Origin: Brevibacillus sp. DP1.3A
Lineage (GTDB): Bacteria > Bacillota > Bacilli > Brevibacillales > Brevibacillaceae
Assembly: GCF_013284245.2 (NCBI RefSeq)
Contig: NZ_CP085876.1
Coordinates: forward strand, 4,986,001 to 5,050,000
Direction: 5' to 3'
Length of the DNA: 64,000 bases
Both the position numbers and the translations under genes were made by a program. The notes beneath the pieces were generated by a model. The model was not told where the DNA came from. It worked only from the letters and a program-made list of their open reading frames with translations, and did no database searches. Below are positions 22,861 to 57,256 of the stretch, one piece after another. Every line of letters begins with the position of its first letter. Position 1 is the stretch's first letter.

Positions 22861-22923
22861 ATTATACGGTAGATTTTCAACCGAACCTTTCAGCATCTTT
22901 ACATCAATTTATAATATTTTTAC
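22861..22923 (-). promoter_or_regulatory. Activator-type promoter of binding-protein copy 1
   Basis: Two direct repeats, CTTTCAGCATCTTTAC (22887-22902) and TTTATAATATTTTTAC (22908-22923), start 21 bp apart. A TATAAT -10 box on the minus strand lies at 22866-22861, exactly 20 bp from the nearer repeat; there is no good -35 hexamer. The pattern recurs at five other promoters in this window. Confidence 0.75.
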
Positions 22924-22976
22924 TTTTATTTAATTTTGTACAGATGAAAATACATTGATACCGTAGCTTCGGTGGA

Positions 22977-23051
22977 GAAGCGTGTTTCCAGTCTTCGCTT
23001 CGGCCTCCGCTCGGTCGGGCTCCAGAGGCGCTATGACTGGAAACACGCTTC
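22977..23051. repeat. Long-hairpin repeat element, copy A
   Basis: A 75-bp element with perfect 17-bp terminal inverted repeats, GAAGCGTGTTTCCAGTC and its complement. Internal segments CGCTTCGGCCTCCGC and AGCGCCTCTGGAGCCCG are shared with copy B at 23241-23440, there in inverted order. No coding capacity. Confidence 0.75.
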
Positions 23052-23240
23052 TTTGACGTTGCTTTTGTCTATTTTTCGATCTATGTATGAAAAGCAACAA
23101 GAAAATGTTTGAAGGTTCTTCATGATTGTTCTTCTGTAGCATTCTAATGTATGGATTTGCTATGAAAAACACTTTATAGTTAGTTAAGTAATTAATTGTC
23201 GCCTTGAATCTACTTTCAAGATGTTACCAAAGCTACGCCG

Positions 23241-23440
23241 GAAGAAGTGCATTTCCAGTCCAAGCGCCTCTGGAGCCCGCCCCAGCGTAGGAATTCATGG
23301 TGGGGAATTTCAGCTTCACTTATGAACTACCTCCTCGAAACTTCTACGTTTGAAGCGCTCCCGCCATTTATTCCGAAGCGAGCAGTCAATCCCCCCTTGC
23401 GGGGCGGAGGCCGAAGCGTAGACTGGAAAGGCGCTTCTTC
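23241..23440. repeat. Long-hairpin repeat element, copy B
   Basis: A 200-bp element with near-perfect 20-bp ends (GAAGAAGTGCATTTCCAGTC and GACTGGAAAGGCGCTTCTTC). Its ends and subterminal blocks match copy A but in opposite orientation, and it has a longer middle that includes CAATCCCCCCTTGC. It is probably a MITE-like or REP-like non-coding repeat; no target duplication was identified. Confidence 0.7.
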
Positions 23441-23470
23441 CTTCACTACGGCTACTTTTATTAACAAATG

Positions 23471-23509
23471 AAAAATCCGACCTCCCCAAGAAGCCTTGGA
23501 AGATCGGAT
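23471..23509 (-). terminator. Terminator of the SBP3-SBP2-amidohydrolase operon
   Basis: ATCCGA...CCAAG / CCTTGG...TCGGAT hairpin with a five-T tail on the minus strand. Confidence 0.75.
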
Positions 23510-23524
23510 CACATCTTACTATCT

Positions 23525-24748
23525 TTATGATTGTTTCTGCCAAACCATCTTGCCCGAGAAAACCACCGCTTCCTTCGGAGATAGTCTAGCCACAGCCTCG
23601 GCGGAGCATTTGGCACGGACGAAAACCGCATTTGCTTCGTCTCCGACTTTTGGCCAAACCTGATTCCCAGCTTGGTCCAGTGGAGTCACGCCACCTGTAA
23701 CGAATCCCAGTGCTCGCGATAGAGATCGCTCATCAATCCAACGGAACCGTTCAGCCAGACGGTTTGCTTTTTGCAGCATATCTCCGGTTCCAAATGGGTC
23801 CCAGTGATCGGTGATGTTGTCATTGCCCAATCCAACATGAACGCCCTTGGCATGAAGCAATGGAATCGGGATGGTCGGCATATCAATGGGAACAGCTGAC
23901 ATGACAGCGATTTGCTGTTCGGCAAAAAGCTCCGCAACCTCTTCTACCACAGCAGTCGGAACCTCTCCTAGCCCATAAGCATGACTGACAGTGACTCGCC
24001 CTTGCCACCCCGCATCCTTCGTCATAGCAGCCAGCTTTTTCATAATATAAACACCCAAATGTCCAGGCTCGTGCAAGTGCAGGTCAACATCCGCATTCGC
24101 TTCCACCGCTATGTCCATCATCGTATCAAGAGATTTCTCGATATCATCGTCAAACGTGGCAGGATCGACACCACCGACGAGGCCGGCTCCATGCTTCATC
24201 GCCTCACGGACGAGGGCAACGGAATCACTGCGGAGCAAACCATGTTGGGGAAACGCGACAATTTCCCAGGAAAGTTTTTCACGGTAAGTTGCCAATGCTT
24301 CCAATGTGGCTTCCAGGTTCTTCAACCCAATGACCGGGTCAATGTTGCAATGGGTTCGCACGTGAGTAGCACCGTGTGATTGCACTAACTCCAGCAGCTT
24401 TTCTGCACGCTCACGAGCGACGGGAAGCTGGCGGGGCAGCAATTCCTGCTCTTGTTCGATTCGAAAAAAACGATTGGGAGCAGGAAGAACGGCTTGCCAC
24501 GGACCTCCATAAAATGTTTTGTCCAAATGAATGTGCATTTCCCGGAAAGAAGGAAGCATCAGTAAGCCTTGTGCATCCCACACAGATACCCCATCGGGTA
24601 TACCAGAAGAAGCAGGTACGATTTTCTCCACGCGACCGTCCGTGAGCAAGACATGAAAACGCTCCGTCTTTGTTCCCGTCGCGATGCCATTCGCCTCTGT
24701 ATAACCACATTCCAGACTCGCATTTTTGATCCACAAGCTTTCTTTCAT
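23525..24748 (-). CDS. CodA-like amidohydrolase (copy 1)
   Basis: A metal-dependent hydrolase of the cytosine-deaminase branch, about 407 residues. Metal ligands are visible as HIHLDKT (about 69), the central His in DLHLHEPGHLG (about 210), His in VTVSHAYGLG (about 242) and Asp in LGNDNITDHWDPFGTGDML (about 305). EIVAFPQHGLL also matches CodA. At the position corresponding to the CodA catalytic Glu it keeps Glu (HLHE), unlike the four other copies in this window. It is the last gene of an operon with two binding proteins. The ATG at 24748 matches paralogue starts. The substrate is unknown, probably a cyclic amidine or amide. Confidence 0.88.
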   Translation of the reverse strand: MKESLWIKNASLECGYTEANGIATGTKTERFHVLLTDGRVEKIVPASSGIPDGVSVWDAQGLLMLPSFREMHIHLDKTFYGGPWQAVLPAPNRFFRIEQEQELLPRQLPVARERAEKLLELVQSHGATHVRTHCNIDPVIGLKNLEATLEALATYREKLSWEIVAFPQHGLLRSDSVALVREAMKHGAGLVGGVDPATFDDDIEKSLDTMMDIAVEANADVDLHLHEPGHLGVYIMKKLAAMTKDAGWQGRVTVSHAYGLGEVPTAVVEEVAELFAEQQIAVMSAVPIDMPTIPIPLLHAKGVHVGLGNDNITDHWDPFGTGDMLQKANRLAERFRWIDERSLSRALGFVTGGVTPLDQAGNQVWPKVGDEANAVFVRAKCSAEAVARLSPKEAVVFSGKMVWQKQS

Positions 24749-24783
24749 GCTCCGTCCCATCCTTTTCTCTCTAAATGTTTGCG

Positions 24784-26355
24784 TTATTCAATCGTAATGC
24801 CATTGATCATCATGTACCCAGAAGGGCTGATCCAGAAGCCTTTGATGTTTTTGGCGACTGCAGCGACATGCTCAAGATTGCGGATTGGGACGATTGGTGC
24901 TTCTTGCTTTTCAATCTCTAGCGCCTTTGCATAGATTTGCTTGCGCTTTTCCGTATCCTGCTCGCGGCGCCCCTCTTCGATCAGCTTGTCCACTTCTTTA
25001 TTCACGTAGAACGTTGTGTTTCCACCTTTGCCCAAAGAGCTGGAGTGGAACAGATTGTACTGGTTGTAGTCAGCGTCACCAGTGGCATTGCCCCAGCCGC
25101 TGATGAACAGCTCTGTTTCACCGTTGTCTTCAGCATCTAAATAGGCTCCATACTCAAGCACTTTTACCTCTACTTCAATGCCGATTCCCTTTAATTGGGA
25201 CTGGATTACTTCCGCTGCATTAATCCGTTCCTTGCGATCGCCTGTCCACAAGGTTGTCTTGAAGCCGTCCGGATAGCCTGCTTCTTTCAACAGAGCCTTC
25301 GCCTTGTTCGGATCGAACTCGTATCCTTTTAACGCCTCATCGTATCCAAGAACCTTCGGACTCATTGCGGAATTCGCTTTCGTTCCGACATCGTTGTACA
25401 CACCTTTGATGATCGCATCGGTCTCAATCGCATAGTTGATCGCCTGGCGAACACGGGCGTCGTCAAACGGTTTTTTCTTGGTATTGAACCCGATGAAATC
25501 TGTCCCTAAGCCCTCTGTCCGATACAAGCTCATATGAGGGGAATTACTGACGCGGTCTATTTCTGTCACCGGCAATGGTTCAGCGATGTGCGCCTCTCCC
25601 GTCTCTACCATGGCTACGCGTGTCGTGTCCTCTGGCACGACTTTGAAGACGGCCTTCTTGAATTTTACCTTTTCTCCCCAGTAGTTGTCATTTTTCACGA
25701 GTACGATCTCTTGGCCAGGTGTCCACGATTCGAATACGAACGGCCCTGTACCGACGGGATGTTTGCTCAGCTCCTTGCCGTATTGCTCAATTGCTTTTGG
25801 ACTAATGATGCTGCCTTCGTGGTTGGCGAGGATCGACAGCAATGGGGAATACGGGTAGGCTAGCTTGAAATGAACGGTGTAATCATCCACTACCTTGACT
25901 TCCGATACCATCTTGAACTGAGTCGCACGTGGAGAGGCGACCTTTTCATCGAGGACGCGTGCGAATGTTGCTTTCACCGCCTCGGCGTTAAACGGCGTAC
26001 CATCGTGGAAGTTGACTCCCTGACGCAGCTTGAACTCCCAGGTGACATCATCCAACTGCTTCCATTCCGTGGCGAGCATCGGTTTGAACGCCATGTTATC
26101 ATCTCGCTGGACGAGACCTTCGTACACTTTGTGATGGACCACACTCGCTGCATTGATCGCTGAAATAAAGTGCGGGTCTAGATTATTTGCGTCAGACTGA
26201 CGTGCAATCACCAGCGTCTGATCTGTTGCGGGAGCTTCCTTTGCAGCCGGAGTCCCTGCCGCACCTTGCTCTGTACCTGATGAACAGCCTGTAAGCACGA
26301 GGCCAACGCTCAGGATACCTGCCAGCATTGAACCTAGCATCTTCTGTTTTTTCAT
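24784..26355 (-). CDS. Family 5 solute-binding lipoprotein (copy 2)
   Basis: A 523-residue lipoprotein, lipobox Cys24 (VGLVLTGC), with the same family-5 blocks as copy 1: ARQSDANNLDPHFIS, VTWEFKLRQGVNFHDGTPFNAEAV, VGTGPFVFESWTPGQEIVLVKNDNYWG. It lacks its own copy of the activator repeats and follows copy 3 by 99 bp on the same strand, so it is probably in that operon. The CodA-like gene follows 35 bp downstream. An inverted repeat lies between copies 3 and 2. Confidence 0.92.
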   Translation of the reverse strand: MKKQKMLGSMLAGILSVGLVLTGCSSGTEQGAAGTPAAKEAPATDQTLVIARQSDANNLDPHFISAINAASVVHHKVYEGLVQRDDNMAFKPMLATEWKQLDDVTWEFKLRQGVNFHDGTPFNAEAVKATFARVLDEKVASPRATQFKMVSEVKVVDDYTVHFKLAYPYSPLLSILANHEGSIISPKAIEQYGKELSKHPVGTGPFVFESWTPGQEIVLVKNDNYWGEKVKFKKAVFKVVPEDTTRVAMVETGEAHIAEPLPVTEIDRVSNSPHMSLYRTEGLGTDFIGFNTKKKPFDDARVRQAINYAIETDAIIKGVYNDVGTKANSAMSPKVLGYDEALKGYEFDPNKAKALLKEAGYPDGFKTTLWTGDRKERINAAEVIQSQLKGIGIEVEVKVLEYGAYLDAEDNGETELFISGWGNATGDADYNQYNLFHSSSLGKGGNTTFYVNKEVDKLIEEGRREQDTEKRKQIYAKALEIEKQEAPIVPIRNLEHVAAVAKNIKGFWISPSGYMMINGITIE

Positions 26356-26391
26356 AGACTCGCCCCCATTTTATTCCTCTTTGTATAATCA

Positions 26392-26431
26392 ATCAGCATA
26401 GCTCGTTCCCAATGGGCGAAGCTATGCTGAT
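26392..26431 (-). repeat. Intercistronic hairpin between binding-protein copies 3 and 2
   Basis: ATCAGCATAGCT and AGCTATGCTGAT form a perfect 12-bp stem with a 16-base loop. The minus-strand 3' side has no T run, so it is more likely an mRNA stability or processing hairpin, or an operator, than a terminator. Confidence 0.6.
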
Positions 26432-26454
26432 CATGAAGCACTTTTTGCTGAAAA

Positions 26455-28041
26455 TTATGGCAATGTTACATCGTCGATCTCAATGTGTCCTGCTGGGCTG
26501 ATCCAAACTCCCTCTACACCTTTTTGGATCGCTGCGAGGTTTTCTGAGAAGCGGTATGGTACCATTGCGGCTTCGTCCATTTCGATTTGCTGTGCTTTTT
26601 CGTAGATTTGCTTCCGTTTTTCTTCGTCTTTCTCTTTGCGGCCCTCATCGATCAGCTTGTCCACTTCCGGATTGCTGTAGAAAGCATGGTTGCCGGCTGC
26701 TCCTTGCGACTTCGTGTGGAACAGGTTGTATTGGTTGTAGTCTGCATCGCCTGTGGCATTGCCCCAACCACTGAGGAACAATTCTGTTTCGCCTTTGTTG
26801 GCTGCTTCAATATAAGCTCCGAACTCTAGCACTTTCACTTCCAAATCGATATTGATTTGTTTCAGCTGTTGCTGCAACACCTCTGCCAAGCTAACTCGTG
26901 CCTTGTTATCATTTAAGTAAATAGTTGCTTTGAAGCCGTTCGCGTATCCAGCTTCTGCCAACAGTTTTTTGGATTTTTCCAGATCGTAAGGCAAGTCTTT
27001 TACATTCGGGCTGTACCCAACCATGGACGGGGTAATGGAAGAATGAGCAACCGTACCGACATCGTTGTAGACCCCTTGAATGATGGTCTTCTTATCGATC
27101 GCATGTGCAATCGCTTGACGAACGCGCACATCATCGAATGGCTTCTTCGAGTTGTTAATCCCGATATGATCGCTAGCGAAAGCAGGGTAACGACCAAGTG
27201 TCATACTCGGAGAATTTTTCACCCGATCGACTTCTGTCACTGGCAATTGCTCAGCTACATTCGCTTCTCCTGTCTCGACCATCGCGAGTCTGGTCGTATC
27301 CTCTGGAACGGTCTTGAAGACGACTTTGTCCAGATTCGGTTTGTCGCCCCAATAGCTATCGTTTTTCACCAGGACGACTTCTTGACCAGGTGTCCATGAT
27401 TCGAATTTGTAAGGGCCTGTTCCCGTTGGATGCTTGGTCAATTCTTTTCCATACTGTTCGATCGCTTTTGGTGACAAAATTCCACCCTCTGCACTGGCGA
27501 GCACGGACAGGAGTGGTGCGTATGGATAGTGCAGGATGAATTGAACCGTTGTATCATCCACGACCTTTACTTCTTTGATTGCTTCAAACAAATTGGCGCG
27601 GTTAGAGCCTACTGCCGGGTCTTGGACACGAGCAATCGTCTTTTTCACAGCTTCCGCATTGAATGGCGTGCCATCGTGGAACGTCACACCGGAGCGAAGC
27701 TTGAATTCCCATGTCACGTCATCGAGCTGCTTCCATTCAGAAGCGAGTGAGCCTACATATTTGCTTTCTTTGTCCATCCGAACAAGACCCTCGTATACCT
27801 TGTGATGAATGATGGCAGCGGAATTGATTTGTGTTAGAAAATGTGGGTCAAGGTTGTTCGCATCAGACAAGCGGGCGATGACGAGTGTCCCGCCTTCTTT
27901 GCCAGCTGGTGCAAAAGCATTGGTTTGCCCTGAAGAATTGGTACTCCCTCCTGCTTCAGGTGCTTGTGAGCAGCCTGCCAACGCTGTAGACACCACAACG
28001 GTCATGGCAAGCAGCGTCTGGAAAAAGCGCGTCTTTTTCAT
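26455..28041 (-). CDS. Family 5 solute-binding lipoprotein (copy 3)
   Basis: A 528-residue binding lipoprotein starting at 28041 (GGGGG ten bases upstream), lipobox Cys24 (STALAGC). Core blocks include ARLSDANNLDPHFLTQ, VTFHDGTPFNAEAVKKTIARV, TGTGPYKFESWTPGQEVVLVKNDSYWG and NNSKKPFDDVRVRQAIAHAIDKKTI. It is the first gene of an operon with copy 2 and the CodA-like copy 1. Its promoter carries three activator repeats, the most in this set, and its roughly 130-nt leader contains a terminator-like hairpin. Confidence 0.92.
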   Translation of the reverse strand: MKKTRFFQTLLAMTVVVSTALAGCSQAPEAGGSTNSSGQTNAFAPAGKEGGTLVIARLSDANNLDPHFLTQINSAAIIHHKVYEGLVRMDKESKYVGSLASEWKQLDDVTWEFKLRSGVTFHDGTPFNAEAVKKTIARVQDPAVGSNRANLFEAIKEVKVVDDTTVQFILHYPYAPLLSVLASAEGGILSPKAIEQYGKELTKHPTGTGPYKFESWTPGQEVVLVKNDSYWGDKPNLDKVVFKTVPEDTTRLAMVETGEANVAEQLPVTEVDRVKNSPSMTLGRYPAFASDHIGINNSKKPFDDVRVRQAIAHAIDKKTIIQGVYNDVGTVAHSSITPSMVGYSPNVKDLPYDLEKSKKLLAEAGYANGFKATIYLNDNKARVSLAEVLQQQLKQINIDLEVKVLEFGAYIEAANKGETELFLSGWGNATGDADYNQYNLFHTKSQGAAGNHAFYSNPEVDKLIDEGRKEKDEEKRKQIYEKAQQIEMDEAAMVPYRFSENLAAIQKGVEGVWISPAGHIEIDDVTLP

Positions 28042-28062
28042 GTAGTTATCCCCCTGTTTTGT

Positions 28063-28139
28063 GAAAAACGTCTCGACGTTTTTCATAAATGTTGATGTGA
28101 CCGCTTGCGGTCAAAAAAACGGTGGTGACCGTTTTTTGC
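28063..28139 (-). promoter_or_regulatory. Hairpin-rich leader, possible attenuator
   Basis: In the minus-strand transcript the order is AAAAAACGGT/ACCGTTTTTT (28139-28116, perfect 10-bp stem ending in a U run), TGACCGCTTGCGGTCA (28115-28100), then an imperfect GAAAAACGT/ACGTTTTT hairpin. The first looks like an intrinsic terminator in front of the coding region. The CGGTC and GACCG segments of the first two hairpins could also pair with each other, a layout that would permit attenuation. Confidence 0.5.
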
Positions 28140-28180
28140 GCCCGATGTACTTGAATATTTTGACCATTCGCGCATATTTC

Positions 28181-28264
28181 ATTTTACCCACTATTCTGGC
28201 ATTGTATTTTCACTCTCTTTACTTGTATTTTCACTATCTTTACTCTTTTTTTCACTTTTTCTAC
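28181..28264 (-). promoter_or_regulatory. Activator-type promoter of the SBP3-SBP2-amidohydrolase operon
   Basis: Three direct repeats at exact 21-bp spacing: TTTTCACTCTCTTTAC (28207), TTTTCACTATCTTTAC (28228) and TTTTCACTTTTTCTAC (28249). A minus-strand -10 box TAAAAT is at 28186-28181, 20 bp from the nearest repeat. Confidence 0.78.
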
Positions 28265-28287
28265 TTTTATACGAACAGAGCGTGTTC

Positions 28288-28322
28288 AAAAAAAGACCCT
28301 CTCCATTTGTTGGAGAAGGTCT
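28288..28322 (-). terminator. Terminator of binding-protein copy 4
   Basis: AGACC-TCTCC / GGAGA-GGTCT stem with a seven-T tail on the minus strand, directly after the stop at 28333. Confidence 0.9.
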
Positions 28323-28332
28323 CATGCTCCTG

Positions 28333-29937
28333 CTATTGAATCGTCACTTGGCTCACGTCAATGTACCCGGATGGACTGATGTACACACCCTGTACATTTT
28401 TTGCAATGGCCGCGAGGTTTTCACTGCTGCGGAATGGCAGCAACGGCACCTCCTCCATCTCGATTTGCTGCGCCTCTGCGTAGATTTCCTTGCGCTTCTC
28501 TGGATCTTTTTCCTTACGACCCGCTTCAATCAGCGCATCGACTTTTGGATTATTATAGAAGGAATGGTTGCCTGGCACACCTGCTGACGTGCTGTGGAAA
28601 AGGTTGTACTGGTTGTAATCTGCATCCCCGGTCGCATTGCCCCATCCACTAATGAACATTTGCGCTTCACCTTTTGCCGCCAATTCCAGATACGCGCCGA
28701 ACTCCATCACTTGAATCTGCAAGTCGATGCCGATTCCCTTCAGCTGGGATTGCAGCACTTCTGCCACATTGATCCGTGCCTTGTTGTCATTGAGATAGAT
28801 GGTTGCCTTGAATCCGTTGGCGTAGCCTGCTTCGGTGAGCAATTGCTTTGCTTTGTTCAAATCGTATTCCGGCGTTTTAATATTCGGGCTATAGCCGATG
28901 ACTTTTGGCCCTAATGACGAGATGGCTACTTTTCCGACATTGTTGTAAACCCCTTTTATAATCGCTTCCTTATCAATCGCATGGGCGATGGCCTGACGGA
29001 CGCGAACATCGTCAAAAGGCTTCTGCTTGACGTTCATCCCGATGTGGTCAACTGCAAATGATTCGAACCGTCCCAAAGACATGCTCTGCGAGTTCTGTAC
29101 CCTTTCCAATTCAGTGACTGGAAGCTGTTCTGCGACATGGGCTTCACCTGTCTCCACCATGGCTACGCGTGTCGCATCCTCAGGAATAGTCTTGAAAACG
29201 ACTTTTTCCAGCTTCGGTTGGGTGCCCCAATACTTCTCGTTTTTCACCATGACGATTTCTTGTCCAGGCGTCCATGATTCAAAGATGAACGGCCCCGTAC
29301 CTACTGGTTTCTTGGACAACTCTTTGCCAAATTCCTTAATCGCCTTCGGACTGATAATGCCACCCTCGGCACTCGCCAGTACGGACAGTAGCCCTGCGAA
29401 CGGATAATGTAAAATAATTTCTACCTTCAGTGGGTCAATGACCTTCACTTCTTTAATCATGCCAAACATGTTTGCTTTGGGAGTCGGATTGTCTTTGTCC
29501 AAAATACGGTCGATCGTCTTCTTCACGGCTTCAGCATGGAAGGGTTCCCCGTCATGGAAGGTAACACCATCACGCAGCGTGAACTCCCAGGTGACATCGT
29601 CTTTTTGTTTCCATTCCTTTGCCAAAAGAGGTTTGTACTCACTATTCCGATCCATCATGACCAGACCTTCATAGAGCTTGTGCTGCGTCACTGCCATGGA
29701 ATTAATCTGGGTACTGAAATGCGGGTCCAGATTATTCGCATCGGACAAGCGCGCAATAATCAAGGTACCGCCTTCACCCGCTGCGGCCGATGAAGACGCG
29801 GGGCTAGTCGAAGCTTGATTGGAGTTGGACGCGGAATTCGTCCCACTGGATGTCTGACTGCCACCACAGCCTGCCAAGACTGTAGAAAGCAAGACGGACA
29901 GGGCGAGAATGGATCCTAGCATGTGCTTCTTCTTCAC
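28333..29937 (-). CDS. Family 5 solute-binding lipoprotein (copy 4)
   Basis: A 534-residue binding lipoprotein that starts at a GTG (29937) with GGGGG eight bases upstream. Lipobox Cys24 (STVLAGC) is followed by a longer Ser/Asn-rich linker than in the other copies. Core blocks: ARLSDANNLDPHFSTQ, VTWEFTLRDGVTFHDGEPFHAEAV, VGTGPFIFESWTPGQEIVMVKNEKYWG. It is monocistronic, with its own terminator and its own activator-type promoter (29992-30055). It is closest to copy 3 by eye, consistent with tandem duplication. Confidence 0.92.
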   Translation of the reverse strand: MKKKHMLGSILALSVLLSTVLAGCGGSQTSSGTNSASNSNQASTSPASSSAAAGEGGTLIIARLSDANNLDPHFSTQINSMAVTQHKLYEGLVMMDRNSEYKPLLAKEWKQKDDVTWEFTLRDGVTFHDGEPFHAEAVKKTIDRILDKDNPTPKANMFGMIKEVKVIDPLKVEIILHYPFAGLLSVLASAEGGIISPKAIKEFGKELSKKPVGTGPFIFESWTPGQEIVMVKNEKYWGTQPKLEKVVFKTIPEDATRVAMVETGEAHVAEQLPVTELERVQNSQSMSLGRFESFAVDHIGMNVKQKPFDDVRVRQAIAHAIDKEAIIKGVYNNVGKVAISSLGPKVIGYSPNIKTPEYDLNKAKQLLTEAGYANGFKATIYLNDNKARINVAEVLQSQLKGIGIDLQIQVMEFGAYLELAAKGEAQMFISGWGNATGDADYNQYNLFHSTSAGVPGNHSFYNNPKVDALIEAGRKEKDPEKRKEIYAEAQQIEMEEVPLLPFRSSENLAAIAKNVQGVYISPSGYIDVSQVTIQ

Positions 29938-29991
29938 TGTGAATGCCCCCTTATTCTGGATGATAGAATGAAAAGAATATGACATGACTAA

Positions 29992-30055
29992 ATATTACTA
30001 ATTTTCTTACTATTAATCTTTTCAATATCTTTACCTTTCTTTTCATTTTCTTTAC
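29992..30055 (-). promoter_or_regulatory. Activator-type promoter of binding-protein copy 4
   Basis: Direct repeats TTTTCAATATCTTTAC (30019-30034) and TTTTCATTTTCTTTAC (30040-30055), period 21 bp. The minus-strand -10 box TAATAT lies at 29997-29992, 21 bp from the nearer repeat. Confidence 0.75.
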
Positions 30056-30110
30056 CATGTGGTTTTTTAATGTTCAAAATAACTCTATTGAAGCTACCTA
30101 CATAGTGGAG

Positions 30111-30322
30111 GAGAAGAAAAAGCACAGTTCTCTTCGACTCTGACACGCCAGCAGGGGGGATTCACTGGCCGTCTACACTTCAAAAAGGGGACCGTCGAGC
30201 CAAAGCCACCCTACGGGCGGACGTTTCTCAAGGAAGAAGTGTTCGACAAGCGTGGTCCCCTTTTTGAAGTTCCGACTGGGTAGGCGTTGTCAAGGTCTAC
30301 GAGCCCTGTGCTTTTTCTTCTC
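30111..30322. repeat. Long-hairpin repeat element, copy C (nested inverted repeats)
   Basis: Outer arms GAGAAGAAAAAGCACAG (30111-30127) and their perfect complement (30306-30322) enclose inner arms ACTTCAAAAAGGGGACC (30177-30193) and their perfect complement (30254-30270). A GCAGGGGGGATTCACTGG block resembles the middle of copy B. Diverged from copies A and B; membership of the same family is tentative. Confidence 0.6.
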
Positions 30323-30365
30323 ACCAGCTTTGGCGGTTTATCGATAGCTTGTAAATCTTGGGAAG

Positions 30366-30393
30366 AAAAAAACCATCCCTTAAAAAGGGATGG
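30366..30393 (-). terminator. Terminator of the fatty acid hydroxylase gene
   Basis: CCATCCCTT / AAGGGATGG stem with a seven-T tail on the minus strand. Confidence 0.9.
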
Positions 30394-30411
30394 CCGTGCA
30401 TGAAAGACCAT

Positions 30412-31044: not shown

Positions 31045-31069
31045 CAGAACGCCCTCCTCTTGTGTTCCT

Positions 31070-31786: not shown

Positions 31787-31822
31787 GATCGCCTCCTTGT
31801 ACTGCTGGTCCTATAACAAGTT

Positions 31823-31841
31823 TTTGTGGTATTACCACAAA
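31823..31841. promoter_or_regulatory. Operator of the FadR-like regulator
   Basis: TTTGTGGTATTACCACAAA is a perfect 9+1+9 palindrome containing TGGT-N3-ACCA, the core recognised by FadR-type GntR proteins. A second, overlapping half-pattern TACCACAAATGGTA continues to 31846. Confidence 0.7.
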
Positions 31842-34172: not shown

Positions 34173-35642
34173 CTATAGTTTGCTCACGATTGGGAAAGAA
34201 GGCTTAAACAGCTCTTTTTCGCCCAGCTGTTGATAGTCGCGCTCTACGTAGCCCAGACGCATTTTGTCAAAGTAACGCTGTCCCTTTGCTTTGATCTCTT
34301 CCAAATCAACTCCTGGCATGAGGCGGTCTTTCATTACGGTGCGTCCAGCGATGATGGAGAGCTTCACATCACGACCTGAGCCACACGTGATGATCGTACG
34401 GATTGGATCATCAACCGCACCCATGTGGAAACCGTCCAGATCGATGGCAATGATATCTGCTTTTGCCCCCGGCGCCAATCGTCCCAGATCATCTCTGCCA
34501 AGGAAACGTGCGCCGCCCAATGTTGCTGCGCGGTAAATATCCGCGTAGCTGGAATCCGCGACATCGCCTTCCACCAAACGAGACAGCATGCTGGCTGTGC
34601 GAATGTTTTGGATGAAGTCAGGCGGGAACGTATCGGTTCCAATCGCGATGTTGACGCCGCGACGTTTGTAACGGGCAAACGATTCGAGTGCCTCGCCATG
34701 GCGACCGACTACGAGCGGGCAGTGAATCACGGTCGTGCCTGTCTCTTGGAGGATCGCCAAATCGTCTCCCTCTCCGAATTTCGCTTTACTAAACCCTGGA
34801 ATGAAATGTGCGTGCGGAATTGCCGTTTTCTTTCCGAGGAAGCCGATCTCATTCAGGAACTGAATCGGTGATTTGTTGTGTCGACGATGGATTTCTGTAT
34901 ATTCATAGAGACCTTGTGCAGCATGAAGACGGATAGGACATCCGAGCTCTTCGCTGTAGCGCTTTGTGTTGATCAGGTTCTCTACAGACTGTGACTCGAT
35001 TCGCTCCGGCGCCAGCATTCCACGGATGAGTCCGTTGTGAGCCCCATCGAAATCTTTGACAAATTGTACGGCCCGCTCCAGACCTGCTTGTCCTTCCGCT
35101 TCGTTCCACAGTACTTCAATCTCTCCATTTGCCTTCACGACACGCATACCGGATTGATAGCTCGGCCCCATGTACATACGCAATCCCAAGCGTCCTGCAT
35201 GATCGGCTGCGGCTGCCAGCTCCTCATACGTTTCCGCCCAGCGCTTATAGAAAACGGATGTAATCGGCATCGCTGTCGTTACCCCATTTAGAATCAGTTG
35301 GCTGTAGGCGTAAAGGGATTTGAACGCCTCTTCCTCAGGGGGCATTACCTCATGGTAGCCTTTGCGGTAGTAGTCTTCAGACCAAAGCATGTTTTTGCTT
35401 CTCGCAGAAGCTTGCTCCAGATGTACGATGTCGTGATCAATATCACCCAACGCATTCAGGTCAATGAAGCCCGGGCTGACTACTGCATTGCCAGCATCGA
35501 TCACTTCATCTACCTCGCCATCAAAATGGTGCCCCACATACACAATGGTGTCATTCTCGTAAACGACTTCCCCATCCTTGATAATCACATGATCTTCGCC
35601 GTCAAAACCGATGACATATTTTGCGGTTATTTTCTTTTTCAT
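34173..35642 (-). CDS. Atypical amidohydrolase of the chlorohydrolase/SsnA type
   Basis: A 489-residue protein of the amidohydrolase superfamily (COG0402-like), different from the five CodA-like copies. The barrel Asp is clear (IAIGTDTFPPDF, about 348), as are RLHAAQG, AHFIPG and VIHCPLVVGRHG. However, the usual metal-binding HxH after PGFID is missing: the sequence reads PGFIDLNALGDIDHDIVHLE. It may use fewer metals, or be a subfamily with a substituted site. The start at 35642 (MKKKITAKY) follows GGAGG by six bases. Its promoter has the shared activator repeats, placing it in the same regulon as the binding proteins. Confidence 0.83.
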   Translation of the reverse strand: MKKKITAKYVIGFDGEDHVIIKDGEVVYENDTIVYVGHHFDGEVDEVIDAGNAVVSPGFIDLNALGDIDHDIVHLEQASARSKNMLWSEDYYRKGYHEVMPPEEEAFKSLYAYSQLILNGVTTAMPITSVFYKRWAETYEELAAAADHAGRLGLRMYMGPSYQSGMRVVKANGEIEVLWNEAEGQAGLERAVQFVKDFDGAHNGLIRGMLAPERIESQSVENLINTKRYSEELGCPIRLHAAQGLYEYTEIHRRHNKSPIQFLNEIGFLGKKTAIPHAHFIPGFSKAKFGEGDDLAILQETGTTVIHCPLVVGRHGEALESFARYKRRGVNIAIGTDTFPPDFIQNIRTASMLSRLVEGDVADSSYADIYRAATLGGARFLGRDDLGRLAPGAKADIIAIDLDGFHMGAVDDPIRTIITCGSGRDVKLSIIAGRTVMKDRLMPGVDLEEIKAKGQRYFDKMRLGYVERDYQQLGEKELFKPSFPIVSKL

Positions 35643-35699
35643 GATGATCCTCCCTACTCTTTCTCGTTCCGGCCTCTCCACTCCATTGTATCTTTCGTT

Positions 35700-35762
35700 A
35701 TTATAGGAAATATTCTGTAAAATTTGTTTCAAAACTTTTATATGTATTTGCACAATCTTTAC
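35700..35762 (-). promoter_or_regulatory. Activator-type promoter of the atypical amidohydrolase
   Basis: Repeats GTTTCAAAACTTTTAT (35726-35741) and TTTGCACAATCTTTAC (35747-35762), period 21 bp. The minus-strand TATAAT lies at 35705-35700, 20 bp from the nearer repeat. Confidence 0.78.
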
Positions 35763-35797
35763 TCCTTTTCGAAAACACACAAGATTCCACGCAATAC

Positions 35798-35860
35798 GTA
35801 AAGATCATGCAAAAACTAGTAAAAAAGATGAAAAAACTTATTCAAAATATTCACTACAAT
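35798..35860 (+). promoter_or_regulatory. Activator-type promoter of CodA-like copy 2
   Basis: The same motif in reverse orientation: GTAAAGATCATGCAAA (35798-35813) and GTAAAAAAGATGAAAA (35819-35834), period 21 bp. TACAAT at 35855-35860 is 20 bp further on. This is the mirror image of the neighbouring divergent promoter. Confidence 0.78.
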
Positions 35861-35925: not shown

Positions 35926-37167
35926 GTGATGCAAGCTTTTTGGTTAACCAACGTTCGTCTTGATAAAGGATTTGAAACAGGAGAAGACGGCGTCTTTCAC
36001 ACACTCTCAGAAATCTGTCATCTAAAAATCGAAGACGGCAAAATCGCAGAGATCGTATCGGCGCACGAAACACTCGACACCACTTTACCGCAAGAAGATG
36101 CAAAAGGTTTATTGGCCCTCCCCTCTTTTGTTGAAAAGCATAATCATCTGGACAAAACGTATGCGGGCGCAACCTGGAAATCGTGCCTCCCTCCGAAAAA
36201 ACTGATTGATCGCTTGGAGTTCGAAGCAAAAGAAATGCCGCTGATGACTGGGACGACCAAGGAGCGCGCGCAAGCAATGCTCCAGTGGCATATCAAAGGC
36301 GGTGCCACACATGTCCGCACACACGTCAACATCGATCCATACATCGGGCTGAAAAACCTGGAGGGTGTGCGTGCAGCACTGGAAGAGTACAGCGATCGCC
36401 TGACGTATGAAATCGTCGCTTTCCCGCAGCAGGGGCTCCTGCGCACACAAGCAAGCTCCTTGATGAGACAAGCGATGAAGGAAGGCGCTACACTGGTTGG
36501 AGGCTTGGACCCGGCTGGGATTGATAATGAATTGGAAGGCTCCTTGCGTGAAATGATGGACATTGCAGTGGAAGCAGATGCGGATGTCGATATTCACCTG
36601 CATGATCCGGGGACACTCGGCTTTTATACGATCAAAAGACTGCTCGATCTGACCGAGGAAGCTGGCTGGCAAAACCGTATGGCGATCAGTCATGCCTTTG
36701 CGCTCGGAGATGTGTCGATAGAGGAAAGCTCGGACATGGCAGACCGATTGTCCCAGCTGGGAACGATGATCATGACGACCGTTCCGATTAATCGGGCAAT
36801 GCCACCTGTTCCGATGCTTCATGCCAAAGGCGTACAAGTCGCACTTGGTTATGATGGCTTCTACGATTCGTGGTCGCCATATGGTACAGGCGATATGCTG
36901 GATAAGTTAAACCGTCTGGTTGAGCGCTACCGTTGGGTCGATGAGAAATCATTGGTGCAATCCTTGTACTTCATCACCGGAGGAAAAACAACGCTCGATA
37001 AAGATGGCAACCGTGCATGGCCAAAGGTTGGCGACGCGGCAAGCATCGTGTTTGCAGAAAGCTCCTGCTCTGCGGAAGCGATTGCGAGAAAATCTCGTCG
37101 GGCTGCTGTTATGTTTAAAGGAAAGATTGTGCATGGTGCTTTGGAGAGATTGGAAGCGGGCAGATAA
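35926..37167 (+). CDS. CodA-like amidohydrolase (copy 2)
   Basis: A 413-residue cytosine-deaminase-like hydrolase. Metal ligands: HNHLDKT (about 69), DIHLHDPGTLGFY (about 211), MAISHAFALGD and the Asp of LGYDGFYDSWSPYGTGDML (about 307). It reads HLHD where CodA has its catalytic Glu. It is the only one of the five copies on the plus strand and is transcribed divergently from the atypical amidohydrolase. GTG at 35926 is ten bases from GGG; ATG at 35929 is the alternative. Regulated by the shared repeats. Substrate unknown. Confidence 0.87.
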   Translation: MMQAFWLTNVRLDKGFETGEDGVFHTLSEICHLKIEDGKIAEIVSAHETLDTTLPQEDAKGLLALPSFVEKHNHLDKTYAGATWKSCLPPKKLIDRLEFEAKEMPLMTGTTKERAQAMLQWHIKGGATHVRTHVNIDPYIGLKNLEGVRAALEEYSDRLTYEIVAFPQQGLLRTQASSLMRQAMKEGATLVGGLDPAGIDNELEGSLREMMDIAVEADADVDIHLHDPGTLGFYTIKRLLDLTEEAGWQNRMAISHAFALGDVSIEESSDMADRLSQLGTMIMTTVPINRAMPPVPMLHAKGVQVALGYDGFYDSWSPYGTGDMLDKLNRLVERYRWVDEKSLVQSLYFITGGKTTLDKDGNRAWPKVGDAASIVFAESSCSAEAIARKSRRAAVMFKGKIVHGALERLEAGR

Positions 37168-48481: not shown

Positions 48482-48485
48482 CTGA

Positions 48486-51374: not shown

Positions 51375-51386
51375 GAAATTGTCCCC

Positions 51387-52565: not shown

Positions 52566-53202
52566 CGTCCGCCACCTCCATTACACCAGGATCATGTGTC
52601 GTCATGACAATACTCATAGCACCTTCATCGACCAGTTGGCGAAATAAACGGCTAATTTGCAGGCCCGTTTTACTATCCAGCTCAGCTGTCGGCTCATCCG
52701 CCAATAGTAGTGTCGGCCTGTTCGCAACAGCTCTGGCAATCGCACAGCGTTGCTGTTCTCCACCGGACATCTCAAACGGCCGATGATGTGCCCGTTTGGA
52801 CAACCCAACGATATCCAGCGATTCGCGAACACGCTCCCTCCATTCGGCAGCAGGCACCCCTGACAGGCGGAGTCCAAACTCGACGTTTTCAGCGGCTGAC
52901 ATCAGCGGAAGCAAGCCAAACGACTGGAAGATAAATGCCATGTTTTTTTGCCTGATCTTCGTTCTCTCATGATCCGATAGCTGGCCGATTTCTCGTCCCT
53001 GAAAGTACACGCTTCCTGCCGTCGGACGATCGAGACCACCCAAAAGGTTTAATAGAGTCGTTTTTCCTGACCCTGATCTGCCTTTTAGTACGAGCAAACG
53101 TCCTGATTCTACACGCATTTTTACGCCCGCAAGCGCTCTGACGGCAGTTGCCCCTCTACCAAACGTGCGTTCTACGTTTTTTGTCTCTGCAATGAACGAC
53201 AA
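52528..53202 (-). CDS. ABC transporter ATPase (first gene of the export operon)
   Basis: A 224-residue LolD/MacB-type ATPase with Walker A GRSGSGKTT (about 42), Q-loop FIFQSFGLLP, signature MSGGEQQRCAIARA (about 140), Walker [13 protein letters not shown] and the H-loop VMTTHDP. I start at a TTG (53202) with GGGGG seven bases upstream, where the conserved FIAETKNVERTF begins; the upstream open frame is hydrophobic and unrelated. The operon order is ATPase, adaptor, permease, second ATPase, so one transporter set has two different ATPases. Confidence 0.88.
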   Translation of the reverse strand: MSFIAETKNVERTFGRGATAVRALAGVKMRVESGRLLVLKGRSGSGKTTLLNLLGGLDRPTAGSVYFQGREIGQLSDHERTKIRQKNMAFIFQSFGLLPLMSAAENVEFGLRLSGVPAAEWRERVRESLDIVGLSKRAHHRPFEMSGGEQQRCAIARAVANRPTLLLADEPTAELDSKTGLQISRLFRQLVDEGAMSIVMTTHDPGVMEVADDVYELEDGRIKE

Positions 53203-53347
53203 AATGACACCCCCGAAAATATGTCTGAAAAATATGAGATTTATTAATAGTAACGCAAATGGAAACCATTGTTTAATAAAATTGGAATAAACTAAGATAA
53301 ACGAAAATAAATTCCTCATTATGGAAACTATAACCACTTACAAAAAG

Positions 53348-53380
53348 AAAAAAGGCAAAACCCTGTGGTTCTGCCTTTTT
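53348..53380 (-). terminator. Terminator of the three-gene CodA-like operon
   Basis: AAAAAGGCA-AACC / GGTT-TGCCTTTTT hairpin on the minus strand with flanking T run, after the stop of copy 3. Confidence 0.88.
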
Positions 53381-53398
53381 ACGCTTTCATTTTCGATT

Positions 53399-54616
53399 TT
53401 ACAAAGCCCCAGAAACAACATTCCCACGGTACATGACCGCTTGACGCTTCGCACGGCGTGCAACTGCTTCTGCTGCCGAGGCTGCATGAACGAATACGAT
53501 ATCCGCCTCGTCGCCAACATTCGGCCACATGCGGTTGCCCTCTTTATCCAGCGGCGTTTTCCCACCTGTAATGAACCCCAGTGCTTGGGACAGGGAACGC
53601 TCATCCTGCATGCGGAAGCGCTCTGCCAAGCGACCTGCTTTTTCCAAGCTGTCACCTTGTCCAAATGGCGACCAGTGATCGGTAATACTGTCGTCTCCGA
53701 GAGAGACGGAGACACCTTTTTCATGCAGCAATGGAATGGGAATCGTCCCTCTGTTCACTGGTACAGTGGAAGTGATCGAAATGCCCAAGCCAGCAAGCAT
53801 TTCAGCAACGTCACCTGCTTCTTCCAGGCTGATGTCAGCAAGGGAGTTGGCATGGCTGATGGTAACGCGACCTTGCCACCCTGCTTCTTCGGTCATTTTA
53901 GCCAGACGCTTGAATGTAAACACCCCGAGATGATCTGGGTCATGCAAATGAACGTCGATTGGTGCATTCGCTTCGACTGCCAGCTCAAAAATGGTAGCGA
54001 GCGATTTCTCGATGTTTTGATCCACTGTCGCCGGGTCTACACCACCAACGTAGGTCGCGCCCATCTTCAAGGCTTGACGGATGTTCTCCACTTGGTTGCT
54101 TCGCAGAAGACCTTGCTGCGGGAAGGCAACGACTTCGCACTGTAATCTGCCGCTAAAGGTCTCCAGTGCAGCCATAGTCGCTTCCAGGTTTTTAAGTCCG
54201 ATGTACGGATCGATATTACAATGAGAGCGAATATGGGTGGAGCCTGCGGACAGCAGCAATTCCAGCATTTTTTCTGCGCGCTCTTGTGCTGTTGGCAATA
54301 GCTTCGGCATGAGCTGGCTCTCTTCTTCCAGTCGACCCAAGATGTTTTTTACTGGTGTCACGGCTTTCCAAGGACCGCCATAGTACGTTTTATCGATATG
54401 GATGTGCATATCCCTAAATGACGGCAGTGCCAACAAACCGCTGGCATCCTTCGTTGGCAGCTCGGTTTGTGGAGCAGCTCCACTCACGATCTGTGCAATT
54501 CGTCCGTCTTCTATTAATAGATGCGCCACTTCAGTATCTGTAGCAACCACCTTGTCATTTTCTTTGCGGTATCCGCTCTCCAAGCGGACGTTGGTAATCC
54601 AATAGGCTGTAGACAT
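53399..54616 (-). CDS. CodA-like amidohydrolase (copy 3)
   Basis: A 405-residue cytosine-deaminase-like hydrolase. Ligand positions: HIHIDKTYYGGPW (about 71), DVHLHDPDHLG (about 210), VTISHANSLAD and the Asp of LGDDSITDHWSPFGQGD (about 306). It has HLHD in place of the CodA Glu-bearing segment. It is the last gene of a three-gene tandem (copies 5, 4, 3), 34 bp after copy 4. Pairwise similarity with the other copies extends over the full length, so the array arose by duplication followed by divergence. Substrate unknown. Confidence 0.88.
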   Translation of the reverse strand: MSTAYWITNVRLESGYRKENDKVVATDTEVAHLLIEDGRIAQIVSGAAPQTELPTKDASGLLALPSFRDMHIHIDKTYYGGPWKAVTPVKNILGRLEEESQLMPKLLPTAQERAEKMLELLLSAGSTHIRSHCNIDPYIGLKNLEATMAALETFSGRLQCEVVAFPQQGLLRSNQVENIRQALKMGATYVGGVDPATVDQNIEKSLATIFELAVEANAPIDVHLHDPDHLGVFTFKRLAKMTEEAGWQGRVTISHANSLADISLEEAGDVAEMLAGLGISITSTVPVNRGTIPIPLLHEKGVSVSLGDDSITDHWSPFGQGDSLEKAGRLAERFRMQDERSLSQALGFITGGKTPLDKEGNRMWPNVGDEADIVFVHAASAAEAVARRAKRQAVMYRGNVVSGAL

Positions 54617-54650
54617 CTATCCATGACATCCTTTCTATTTAAAAGTAGTA

Positions 54651-55874
54651 CTACCACTCACCTGCTACCCGGTTGCCTTGAAAAAGAACGACCTTGCGCT
54701 TCGCACGTCTCGCAACAGCTTCTGCTGAACATGTCGCTTCGACCGCCATCAGGCTCGCCTCATCTCCAGCCAATGGCCACAGGCGATTCCCGGTTTCGTC
54801 GAGAGTGATCCGCCCTTCTGTCACAAAGCCGAGTGCTACGCCTAACGATCTTTCATCCGTCAAGCGGAAGCGTTCAGCCAGTCGTCCTGCTTTTTCCAAC
54901 AAGTCTCCGCTGCCAAAGGGTGTCCAGTTGTCTGTCAAGCTATCGTTGCCGAGCATGACCGCTACGCCTTCTTGATGCAGCAACGGAATCGGAATGGTCG
55001 GGCGATTGATCGGCACTGTCGATGCGATAGAGATACCAAGAGAGGCGAGTCGTTGCGCCATCTCTTTGGCTTCCTCCTGTGAAACATCGCCTAATCCCAT
55101 CGCGTGGCTAATCGTGACACGTCCTTGCCAGTCTGCCTCTTCAGTCAGAGTAGCAAGGCGCTTCATCGTAAATACTCCGAGATGCCCCGGATCATGCAAA
55201 TGCATGTCAATGTCGGCATCCGCTTCGACTGCCAGCTCTAGCATCGTTTGCAGAGAACGCTCGATGTCGCCGTCTACTCCACCTGGATCGACGCCGCCTA
55301 CATGAGTGGCTCCTTGACGCAGTGCCTCACGTACCATGTCGCGCGCTTGTGTACGCAGCATGCCATAATGCGGGAAAGCAACGATTTCGTGGGAGACACG
55401 GTCTGCATACGTCTCAAACGCACTCTTCATTCCTTCCAAAAACCCAAGACCAACCTGTGGGTCCACATGACAATGCGTTCTTACATGCGTAACCCCTGTT
55501 TCCACCAGCGTCGAGAGAATATTTTCTGCTCCTGTCTGAGCCTGTTTGAGATACATCGGCAACAGCCCTCTGTCCTCAGTGTGGCGTTCGAACAAGTTTT
55601 TTACGGGAGTCGTTGCCTTCCATGGGCCGCCGTAATACGTTTTTTCCAGATGAATGTGCTTCTCGGCCATAGACGGCAAGATCAGTAAGCCCTTCGCGTC
55701 CTTTTTAGGCAGCCCATCCTCCAAAATTTCACTAGAAGGGACAATGCGTGTGATTTTTCCATGCTCAATGAGCAAATCGCACAGCTCTGTCCGCGTTCCA
55801 CTGATCACGCCTTCTTCCCACTCATACCCGATTTCCAATCGAGCGTTGACGATCCAATAAGGAGAAGATTTCAC
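54651..55874 (-). CDS. CodA-like amidohydrolase (copy 4)
   Basis: A 407-residue paralogue starting at GTG 55874 (GAGGGGTG upstream). Ligands: HIHLEKTYYGGPW, in which the Asp after HxHL is Glu, DMHLHDPGHLG, VTISHAMGLGD and the Asp of LGNDSLTDNWTPFGSGDLL. The second block reads THCHVDPQVGLGFLE, where other copies have IGLKNLE or a close variant, and AFPHYGMLRT replaces AFPQxGLLRT. These changes near the pocket suggest a different substrate from its neighbours. Middle gene of the copy 5-4-3 operon, 16 bp after copy 5. Confidence 0.88.
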   Translation of the reverse strand: MKSSPYWIVNARLEIGYEWEEGVISGTRTELCDLLIEHGKITRIVPSSEILEDGLPKKDAKGLLILPSMAEKHIHLEKTYYGGPWKATTPVKNLFERHTEDRGLLPMYLKQAQTGAENILSTLVETGVTHVRTHCHVDPQVGLGFLEGMKSAFETYADRVSHEIVAFPHYGMLRTQARDMVREALRQGATHVGGVDPGGVDGDIERSLQTMLELAVEADADIDMHLHDPGHLGVFTMKRLATLTEEADWQGRVTISHAMGLGDVSQEEAKEMAQRLASLGISIASTVPINRPTIPIPLLHQEGVAVMLGNDSLTDNWTPFGSGDLLEKAGRLAERFRLTDERSLGVALGFVTEGRITLDETGNRLWPLAGDEASLMAVEATCSAEAVARRAKRKVVLFQGNRVAGEW

Positions 55875-55890
55875 CGGCTTTTCACCCCTC

Positions 55891-57126
55891 TTAAACGTTC
55901 ACTTCATCCACTTGACCAGAAGCGAGATTGCCTTTGAAGAATACTGCGTGTCGATCTGCACGGCGCGCGATCGCTTCTGCCGAGCAGGTCGCATCCACGA
56001 GGATCAGGCTAGCGTCTTCGCCTTGTGCAGGCCACAGCTGTGTTCCGTTGGCATCCAACGTCGTTTTGCCACCTGTGATAAAACGCAGCGATTGAGATAG
56101 GGACAACTCATCCAGCCAACGATTGCGTTCTGCCAGTCGCCAGAGGCGCTCCAATACATCGCCATTTCCATATGGTTGCCACGTGTCAAAAATGTTGTCG
56201 CAGCCGACCGCAACGTCTACGCCATTTTGGTGCAACAGCTGCACAGGTGGAATGACGCGGCTAAATGGTACGCTGGTGATGATCGTGATGCCCGCTTCCC
56301 GCAGGATCGTCGCCATCTCCTCTGCTTCTGGCACAGGGATGTCTCCAAGCGCAAACGCATGGCTGATTGCTACGCGACCTTGCCAGCCAGCGTCTACGGT
56401 CATTGCAGCTAGTCGTTTCATTGTGTAGGTTCCCAAATGTCCTGGGTCATGCAAATGCAAGTCCACACCTGCGTTTGCTTCTACAGCCAGCTCCATCATT
56501 TGGTGCAAGGATTCTTCTATATCGCCATCCACATTAGCTGGGTCTACACCACCTACATGAGTCGCGCCTTGACGCAATGCCTCACGTAAGAGCGCTTTTG
56601 CATCTGTACGCAACAAGCCATGCTGCGGGAATGCCACGATCTCGTGGGTTACTCGATCCGCGTAGGTTGCTAATGCTGCTTTTACTGATTCCAAATTGGA
56701 GATTCCCACTTCCGGGTAAATGTCCACATGTGTACGTACGTGTGTCGAGCCATAGGACAAGAGGATCTCCAACAGATTCTCCGCACGCTCTTGTGTAGTT
56801 GTAGGCAATCCCGGCAGTGTACGTTTTTCAATTTCACAGCGTTCAATGATAGTAGACACAGGAATGACGGCCCGCCATGGTTCTCCCTGAAGCGTCTTGT
56901 CCAAATGAACATGCTTCTCTACGAAAGATGGGAGTGCCAATAAGCCTTTTGCATCCTTTTGCAAAATACCATCTGTAAGCTTCTCTGTCGCTGGTACAAT
57001 ACGCGCGAATTTTCCGTCTTTTACCAAAATGTGAAACAAGGATGCCTCTGTCCCCGTGACGACACCGTTTTCCCGACGGTAGCCCGTCTCCAAACGAACA
57101 TTGGTCAACCAATAGGTAACGCCCAT
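55891..57126 (-). CDS. CodA-like amidohydrolase (copy 5)
   Basis: A 411-residue paralogue and the first gene of the tandem operon. Ligands: HVHLDKTLQGEPW (about 69), DLHLHDPGHLGTY, VAISHAFALGD and the Asp of VGCDNIFDTWQPYGNGDVL. The metal-Asp region is closest to that of E. coli CodA (GHDDVFDPWYPLGTANML, recalled from memory). The start at 57126 follows AGAGGGTGG. Its promoter has the shared activator repeats and it is divergent from the permease operon. Confidence 0.88.
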   Translation of the reverse strand: MGVTYWLTNVRLETGYRRENGVVTGTEASLFHILVKDGKFARIVPATEKLTDGILQKDAKGLLALPSFVEKHVHLDKTLQGEPWRAVIPVSTIIERCEIEKRTLPGLPTTTQERAENLLEILLSYGSTHVRTHVDIYPEVGISNLESVKAALATYADRVTHEIVAFPQHGLLRTDAKALLREALRQGATHVGGVDPANVDGDIEESLHQMMELAVEANAGVDLHLHDPGHLGTYTMKRLAAMTVDAGWQGRVAISHAFALGDIPVPEAEEMATILREAGITIITSVPFSRVIPPVQLLHQNGVDVAVGCDNIFDTWQPYGNGDVLERLWRLAERNRWLDELSLSQSLRFITGGKTTLDANGTQLWPAQGEDASLILVDATCSAEAIARRADRHAVFFKGNLASGQVDEVNV

Positions 57127-57171
57127 CCATTATCCACCCTCTCTTTGTCTCTCTCCATTCCTTTCTCCCCC

Positions 57172-57256
57172 ATTATCTAGGAAGCTGGAAGACTTGATTT
57201 GCACAATCTTTACGTCTATTTTCACTATTTTTACGACTTGTTCAAATTGCCTTTAC
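57172..57256 (-). promoter_or_regulatory. Activator-type promoter of the CodA-like tandem operon
   Basis: Repeats TTTGCACAATCTTTAC (57198-57213) and TTTTCACTATTTTTAC (57219-57234), period 21 bp, plus a weaker third copy TTCAAATTGCCTTTAC (57241-57256). Minus-strand GATAAT lies at 57177-57172, 20 bp from the nearest repeat. The first repeat is identical to the one at 35747-35762. Confidence 0.78.

Follow-up and report, generated by a model that had tools for sequence, protein, structure and literature searches.

In a 64,000-nucleotide (nt) stretch of the genome of the soil bacterium Brevibacillus sp. DP1.3A (GCF_013284245.2, NZ_CP085876.1, positions 4,986,001–5,050,000; this whole stretch is called the window, and its own coordinates are used below), six promoters of binding-protein and amidohydrolase genes share a tandem operator at a fixed distance from the −10 box. 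The pattern reported in a preliminary description of this DNA is correct, and it is stronger than was claimed there. We hold with high confidence that the six promoters belong to a real regulon. Its regulator is likely the AraC-type response regulator encoded at 62062–62766, as suggested by the linkage of operator and regulator gene in many genera and by the geometry of the promoters.

Operator and promoter layout

The operator unit is a 16-bp repeat, GTAAAGATnnTGAAAA when read in the sense of the gene, which is present at all six promoters. The repeats recur with a period of 21 bp, with two units per promoter and three at 28207. The −10 hexamer lies 20 bp after the proximal repeat in five of the six promoters and 21 bp after it in one. 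On the minus strand, the promoter of the family-5 binding protein (SBP_bac_5, hereafter SBP5) gene 21230–22804 occupies 22861–22923, with the distal repeat at 22908–22923, the proximal repeat at 22887–22902 and TATAAT at 22861–22866. The minus-strand promoter at 28181–28264 (repeats at 28249, 28228 and 28207; TAAAAT at 28181–28186) precedes two SBP5 genes (26455–28086 and 24784–26355) and a CodA-like amidohydrolase gene (23525–24760), while that at 29992–30055, on the same strand (repeats at 30040 and 30019), precedes the SBP5 gene 28333–29985 and bears TAATAT (29992–29997) at 21 bp. The minus-strand promoter 35700–35762 (repeats at 35747 and 35726; TATAAT at 35700–35705), whose spacer contains a CodY-like palindrome, belongs to a chlorohydrolase-type gene (34173 to about 35642), and the plus-strand promoter 35798–35860 (repeats at 35798 and 35819; TACAAT at 35855–35860) belongs to the amidohydrolase gene 35926–37167. 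The sixth promoter, 57172–57234 on the minus strand (repeats at 57219 and 57198; GATAAT at 57172–57177), precedes three amidohydrolase genes (55891–57126, 54651–55874 and 53399–54616). Each promoter lies on the strand of its genes. The repeat positions given in the preliminary description, in two or three tandem copies spaced by 21 bp, were all recovered, and the −10 boxes agreed with it hexamer by hexamer.

Half-sites with up to three mismatches occur 38 times in the window, as compared to 14.3 ± 3.5 times in shuffled sequences. When the matrix was built with one promoter left out, the omitted promoter ranked third or seventh among the paired positions on both strands of the window, where seven such pairs exist. 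Good −35 boxes, also said to be missing, are indeed absent: the hexamers 15–19 bp upstream of the −10 box match TTGACA at no more than three of six positions in the six promoters and in two further ones. The end of the proximal repeat occupies the place of the −35 box. With the −10 hexamer numbered −12 to −7 by convention, the proximal site would end near −33. Within each repeat, a B box (TGnAAA) lies some 10 bp from an A box (GTAAA). This spacing would suit one AraC-type monomer whose two helix-turn-helix (HTH) motifs enter successive major grooves, as those of MarA do according to the part of PMC8279559 drawn on here.

The six promoters were further compared among 7 of the 15 Brevibacillus genomes that carry the regulator (six or seven genomes per promoter, near-identical ones omitted), with orthology assigned by order and sequence. 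A site was present in 41 of the 42 promoters; one genome (G008) has none at the chlorohydrolase promoter and was omitted there. The mean pairwise identity was 95% and 90% in the two repeats, figures inflated by the choice of sites by motif match, and 89% in the −10 box, which is free of this bias. Elsewhere it fell to 78% (linker), 69% (spacer), 52% (upstream flank) and 49% (downstream flank). A separate region at 57235–57290 stands out by its unusual conservation (88% over 60 bp). It lies upstream of the 57198 repeats and may represent the divergent promoter of the Opp operon or a degenerate third repeat.

Occurrence of the operator within and beyond the genome

The 6.66-Mb genome was scanned with the strict pattern GTAAARATNNTGMAAA-N5-GTAAARATNNTGMAAA, allowing up to three mismatches, and with the reversed pattern as the control. 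The strict pattern returned eight matches and the control none. Seven of the eight lie at the six window promoters. The eighth, C1:3790877, is located about 1.2 Mb away, upstream of an SBP5 gene, and is followed by TAAAAT exactly 20 bp on. This seventh promoter (L019, C1:3784000–3796000) sits between the SBP5 gene and the gene of a Btr-like AraC protein, which carries a periplasmic-binding domain; the gene of another AraC-type protein is close by. A looser pattern matched 36 places, as compared to 22 for its reversed control; ten had at most two mismatches, and the 26 with three were set aside as lying at the level of the control (22 in all). The ten places comprise the eight strict matches together with C1:5055724, which has TATAAT at 20 bp upstream of an SBP_bac_1 (SBP1) gene, and C1:3808701, which precedes the gene of a 494-aa ATZ/TRZ-type amidohydrolase. 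A relative of this enzyme (71–80% identical; three partial) is encoded in 35 of the 80 regulator loci described below, and the scan, guided by sequence alone, had therefore found, 1.2 Mb off, an enzyme that is clustered in other genera. The matches fall at transport and hydrolase genes, and the motif is not equally frequent before unrelated genes. The claim of a new regulon is upheld by this confinement to the window genes and their relatives, by conservation between species and by the prediction of members outside the window.

Among 26 congeneric genomes, in which the regulator was called present at E 1e-40 or better, the 15 with the regulator have five to eight paired matches each. Ten of the 11 genomes lacking it have no paired match and one (G001) has a single match, while the reversed control gave none in all 26. 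Sites were also counted in stretches from 14 genomes, at up to five mismatches and with each promoter taken once. A −10-like hexamer stands at 20 bp in 76 of these 87 sites, TAATAT at 21 bp in ten, and neither in one, which is in G001. Three genomes (G020, G021 and G024) have an extra site, located on a different contig and followed at 20 bp by GATAAT, before the gene of a CodA-like amidohydrolase that is 79% identical to the protein encoded at 55891–57126 in the window. Among the genomes of the wider family, the regulator is found in G032 (80% identical), G037 (67%) and G031 (55%). G032 has four sites on the contig of the regulator, its matches on contigs C15 and C27 being read as background, and G037 has one such site. 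No convincing site was found in G031, the one match there being read as background, despite the presence of the regulator. In the ten family genomes without the regulator, the looser pattern gave six matches and the control seven, and single matches in these genomes were likewise taken as background.

The same operator recurs in other genera beside orthologues of the regulator. We analyzed 80 of 129 loci around such orthologues (54–99% identity), taken from named genomes of Brevibacillus, Paenibacillus, Gottfriedia, Peribacillus, Neobacillus, Cytobacillus, Sporosarcina and others, most of the loci being from outside Brevibacillus. The matrix was built solely from the six window promoters and had no −10 requirement. 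It yielded 156 pairs, or 154 after two upstream members of triples had been dropped, in 76 of the 80 loci, all on the strand opposite to the regulator and within 10 kb of its gene. The best −10 offset was 20 bp in 121 of these pairs, 21 in 17, 19 in 11 and 42 in one, with ties in four. In the 71 loci outside Brevibacillus species, strong half-sites formed 93 pairs at a period of 21 bp, five at 22 and at most three at any other period between 12 and 33; with a looser cut-off, the numbers were 130, 25 and at most ten, respectively. Scanning of the 80 loci and eight other stretches gave 197 matches, overlapping triples included, while the Markov-resampled control (three sets of the 80 loci) gave a mean of 3.3. 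Behind the 154 pairs lie the genes of 89 SBP5 proteins, 22 CodA-like amidohydrolases, 11 chlorohydrolase-type enzymes and seven SBP1 proteins. The remaining pairs are followed by the end of the locus (12) or by other frames (13), four of which encode ATZ/TRZ-type amidohydrolases.

The candidate regulator and competing explanations

The plus-strand gene 62062–62766 encodes a response regulator of 234 aa, the proposed activator, with matches to HTH_AraC and HTH_18 in addition to a Response_reg (receiver) domain. Of the 52 window proteins scanned, it alone has an AraC-type HTH, and its nearest solved structures include two-component response regulators with an AraC-type output. The histidine kinase encoded at 61269–62057 on the same strand (262 aa, one predicted transmembrane segment) has His_kinase and HATPase_c domains and no further Pfam domain, hence no recognised sensor domain. 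Simple hydropathy analysis of 78 orthologous kinases predicted one transmembrane segment before the phospho-acceptor region in 62, two in 15 and none in one; in 35 kinases the motif was unrecognised, and the first 90 residues were used instead. The order kinase, regulator, SSF symporter is kept in 78 of the 80 loci, and no kinase was recognised in the other two, which carry two regulator copies. Two copies per locus, one of them away from the kinase, were observed in L194, L203, L216 and L236.

The assignment of the operator to 62062–62766 is supported, not proven, by the linkage in 76 of the 80 loci, by presence and absence within the genus and by the lack of another AraC-type HTH among the window proteins scanned. 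That an AraC-type activator takes the place of the −35 box, as had been proposed, is supported by the promoter geometry, which is close to those of XylS/Pm and MtlR. We consider it very probable that the promoters form one positively controlled regulon, in which the response regulator would be phosphorylated by the linked kinase and act by class II activation. The regulon would comprise the six window promoters and about three elsewhere in the genome. Two regulator monomers would bind the tandem 16-bp sites on the same face of the DNA, 21 bp or two helical turns apart, with the A box and the B box of each site occupied by one HTH each. With the proximal site ending 20 bp before the −10 box, the bound protein would cover the −35 place and recruit RNA polymerase. 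Phosphorylation would come from the kinase encoded just upstream, which is nearly devoid of a sensor part. Either the adjacent SSF symporter or the Opp-type transporter probably supplies the signal, as suggested by the conserved kinase–regulator–symporter order together with the sensor-poor kinase; a sensing role of the linked symporter is a lead.

Several observations weigh against this assignment. Co-occurrence was considered as proof of the regulator and is weakened in that role, since the 21 relatives without the regulator mostly lack the targets too: five have distant amidohydrolases only (27–30% identical), 16 have none at E 1e-20, and a chlorohydrolase is found in one of the 21, in truncated form. 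With the targets mostly absent, co-occurrence cannot prove the identity of the regulator. In G009 (Brevibacillus centrosporus, L190:10001–10570), six sites are intact and the regulator matches only to residue 167–168 of 234. G001 lacks the regulator at E 1e-40, yet two site-like pairs are kept, a decayed one, followed by TATACT at 20 bp, upstream of a chlorohydrolase gene that is truncated, and a second before an ATZ/TRZ-type gene; these sites fit a recent loss of the regulator and equally another binding protein. Moreover, a −10 box is missing at 20 bp from the C1:3808701 site, and no operator pair in the 80 loci is directed at the regulator's own operon. Four Sporosarcina loci fall below the pair threshold, with weaker pairs and TATAAT at 20 bp at the usual place. 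The loci are also related and syntenic, and the counts drawn from them are not independent. As to the G009 regulator itself, its frame ends at another stop after residue 167–168, which may be a true truncation or an assembly fault.

The intact sites of G009 favor the rival explanation that survives best, namely that the regulon is real and another factor binds the repeats, such as an AraC-type protein near 3790877 or an unlinked one, while 62062–62766 controls something else. AraC-type domains are numerous in the genome (the two domains of the regulator together gave 92 matches), and both the Btr-like protein, with its HTH and periplasmic-binding domain, and the second AraC-type protein are encoded near the seventh promoter. 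However, the sites lie within 10 kb of the gene of a 62062–62766 orthologue in 76 of 80 loci from many genera, and the scan of 52 window proteins revealed no other of AraC type. The closest full-length paralogue, a second short receiver–AraC regulator (C1:1610646–1611374, L021; 32% identical), has no pair within about 4–5 kb, the best pair score there being 7.8, as compared to 34.5–45.5 for true pairs. We regard control by another factor as unlikely.

It is very improbable that the repeats represent four half-sites of about 10.5 bp for an OmpR/PhoP-type response regulator in place of two AraC-type sites. The GTAAA and TGnAAA boxes do alternate every 10–11 bp or so, and OmpR-type sites likewise stand in tandem ahead of the −10 box. 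However, the A and B boxes are consistently unlike, the information content recurs at 21 bp and not at 10–11 bp, the scan of 52 window proteins detected no output domain of the OmpR type, and the linked regulator has an AraC-type HTH. A remnant of promoter duplication among paralogous genes, with no shared regulator today, is already disfavoured and hardly credible: several targets are indeed paralogous (four SBP5, five CodA-like), but sites also precede SBP1 and chlorohydrolase genes, and between species the repeats (90–95%, inflated as noted) and the −10 box (89%) stand out from flanks near 50% identity.

Target genes, related systems and significance

Family matches confirmed the gene assignments of the preliminary description: four SBP_bac_5 proteins, identified by domain search, five CodA-like amidohydrolases of the PRK06846 type, identified by domain and family search and each above the curated cut-off, and one atypical, PRK06151-type amidohydrolase of the chlorohydrolase family. 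Three of the CodA-like genes are consecutive (53399–57126, minus strand). The mechanically listed open reading frame of the PRK06151-type enzyme, 34173–35780, overlaps the repeats at 35726 and 35747. Judging from the sequence, the true start is most likely the ATG near 35642, which is preceded by a ribosome site, giving a gene at 34173–35642 on the minus strand. On the plus strand, an Opp/Gsi-type ATP-binding cassette transporter with two permeases and two ATPases is encoded at 57307–61173, ahead of the kinase and regulator genes. The SSF-family symporter gene at 62764–64000 is represented by its start only, with an uncertain start codon, and continues beyond the window. The frame after the symporter encodes a cytosine/purine-type permease in both loci scanned (L197 and L206). 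The SBP5 targets probably serve the linked Opp-type transporter, and the family names suggest that the regulon products probably import and hydrolyse small ring compounds, nucleobase-like or otherwise nitrogenous. Between the first binding-protein gene and the amidohydrolase gene, a stretch of about 460 bp (22976–23439) with nested inverted repeats (35 nt at 91% and 50 nt at 84%) looks like a small non-coding mobile element.

The spacers contain a further element. A palindrome resembling the CodY box (consensus AATTTTCWGAAAATT, from the part of PMC5314169 used here) occurs with up to three mismatches in 40 of 120 distinct spacers, as compared to 2.3 in shuffles, and mostly at one position; examples are L180:403, L164:163 and L178:168, and 35709–35723 and 30000–30014 in the window. 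In the window as a whole, the CodY box has ten matches against 4.4 expected, a modest excess, including one at 57264 before the Opp operon. The two window spacers named, of the 35726 and 30019 promoters, are the only ones to hold a match, with three mismatches each. Two CodY-family matches were obtained in the genome. The spacer palindrome mostly reads GAATATT instead of GAAAATT, which makes another protein or a promoter element possible in its place; CodY control through the palindrome is a lead from sequence. Tentatively, and with some doubt, one may envisage a ring-scavenging circuit throughout the Bacillales, in which a sensorless kinase would be switched by a separate SSF symporter, as a split CbrA-like transceptor, the AraC-type regulator would replace the −35 box at every target promoter, and CodY would exert a veto through the spacer palindrome when amino acids are plentiful.

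Known systems offer close parallels, which are drawn here from parts of the cited papers. XylS binds two 15-bp direct repeats at Pm, each with an A and a B box (PMC5481539), and MtlR occupies 15-bp blocks at −72 to −58 and −50 to −36 of PmtlE (PMC4514859). The present promoters likewise have two tandem repeats of about 15 bp, each with two boxes, the proximal one next to or at the −35 region. In contrast to XylS and MtlR, which are one-component, ligand-binding regulators of Pseudomonas, the DNA-binding domain is here fused to a receiver domain, the repeat sequence differs, and one half-site type serves at least eight promoters. The combination of a receiver with an AraC-type HTH, an adjoining kinase gene and uptake and degradation targets is that of the YesN type and of XydS/R of Clostridium cellulolyticum (PMC3572039). 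However, the regulator, at 234 aa, is short, the kinase has no recognised sensor domain, and the operator and promoter geometry are sharp, whereas no consensus site was found for XydR in the portion of PMC3572039 considered. The histidine kinases CbrA, CrbS and RpuS are associated with an SLC5/SSF symporter (PMC9100948), as is the kinase here, where the symporter would have a sensing role. In those proteins, as far as that account goes, both parts belong to one polypeptide joined by a STAC domain, while here they are encoded by separate genes on either side of the regulator gene; the single full-length symporter examined (L163) showed SSF only and no STAC fusion. An AraC-type activator behind a two-component system is of a known kind. 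The operator, the regulon members and their wiring were not found described in the literature searched, which left most subscription journals outside its coverage and in part comprised top-ranked results only.

These results unite uncharacterised binding proteins and CodA-like amidohydrolases in a single regulon. It has a candidate regulator, an operator that can be searched for and a precisely defined promoter layout, and its target families occur in Brevibacillus, Paenibacillus, Peribacillus, Gottfriedia, Neobacillus, Cytobacillus and others. Unlinked members can already be predicted from the operator, among them, at 3.81 Mb, an enzyme whose gene belongs to the cluster in other genera. The linked symporter and the sensor-poor kinase provide a testable model of possible signalling by a transporter. 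The inducer, once found, would give a clue to what these functionally uncharacterised enzyme families act on.

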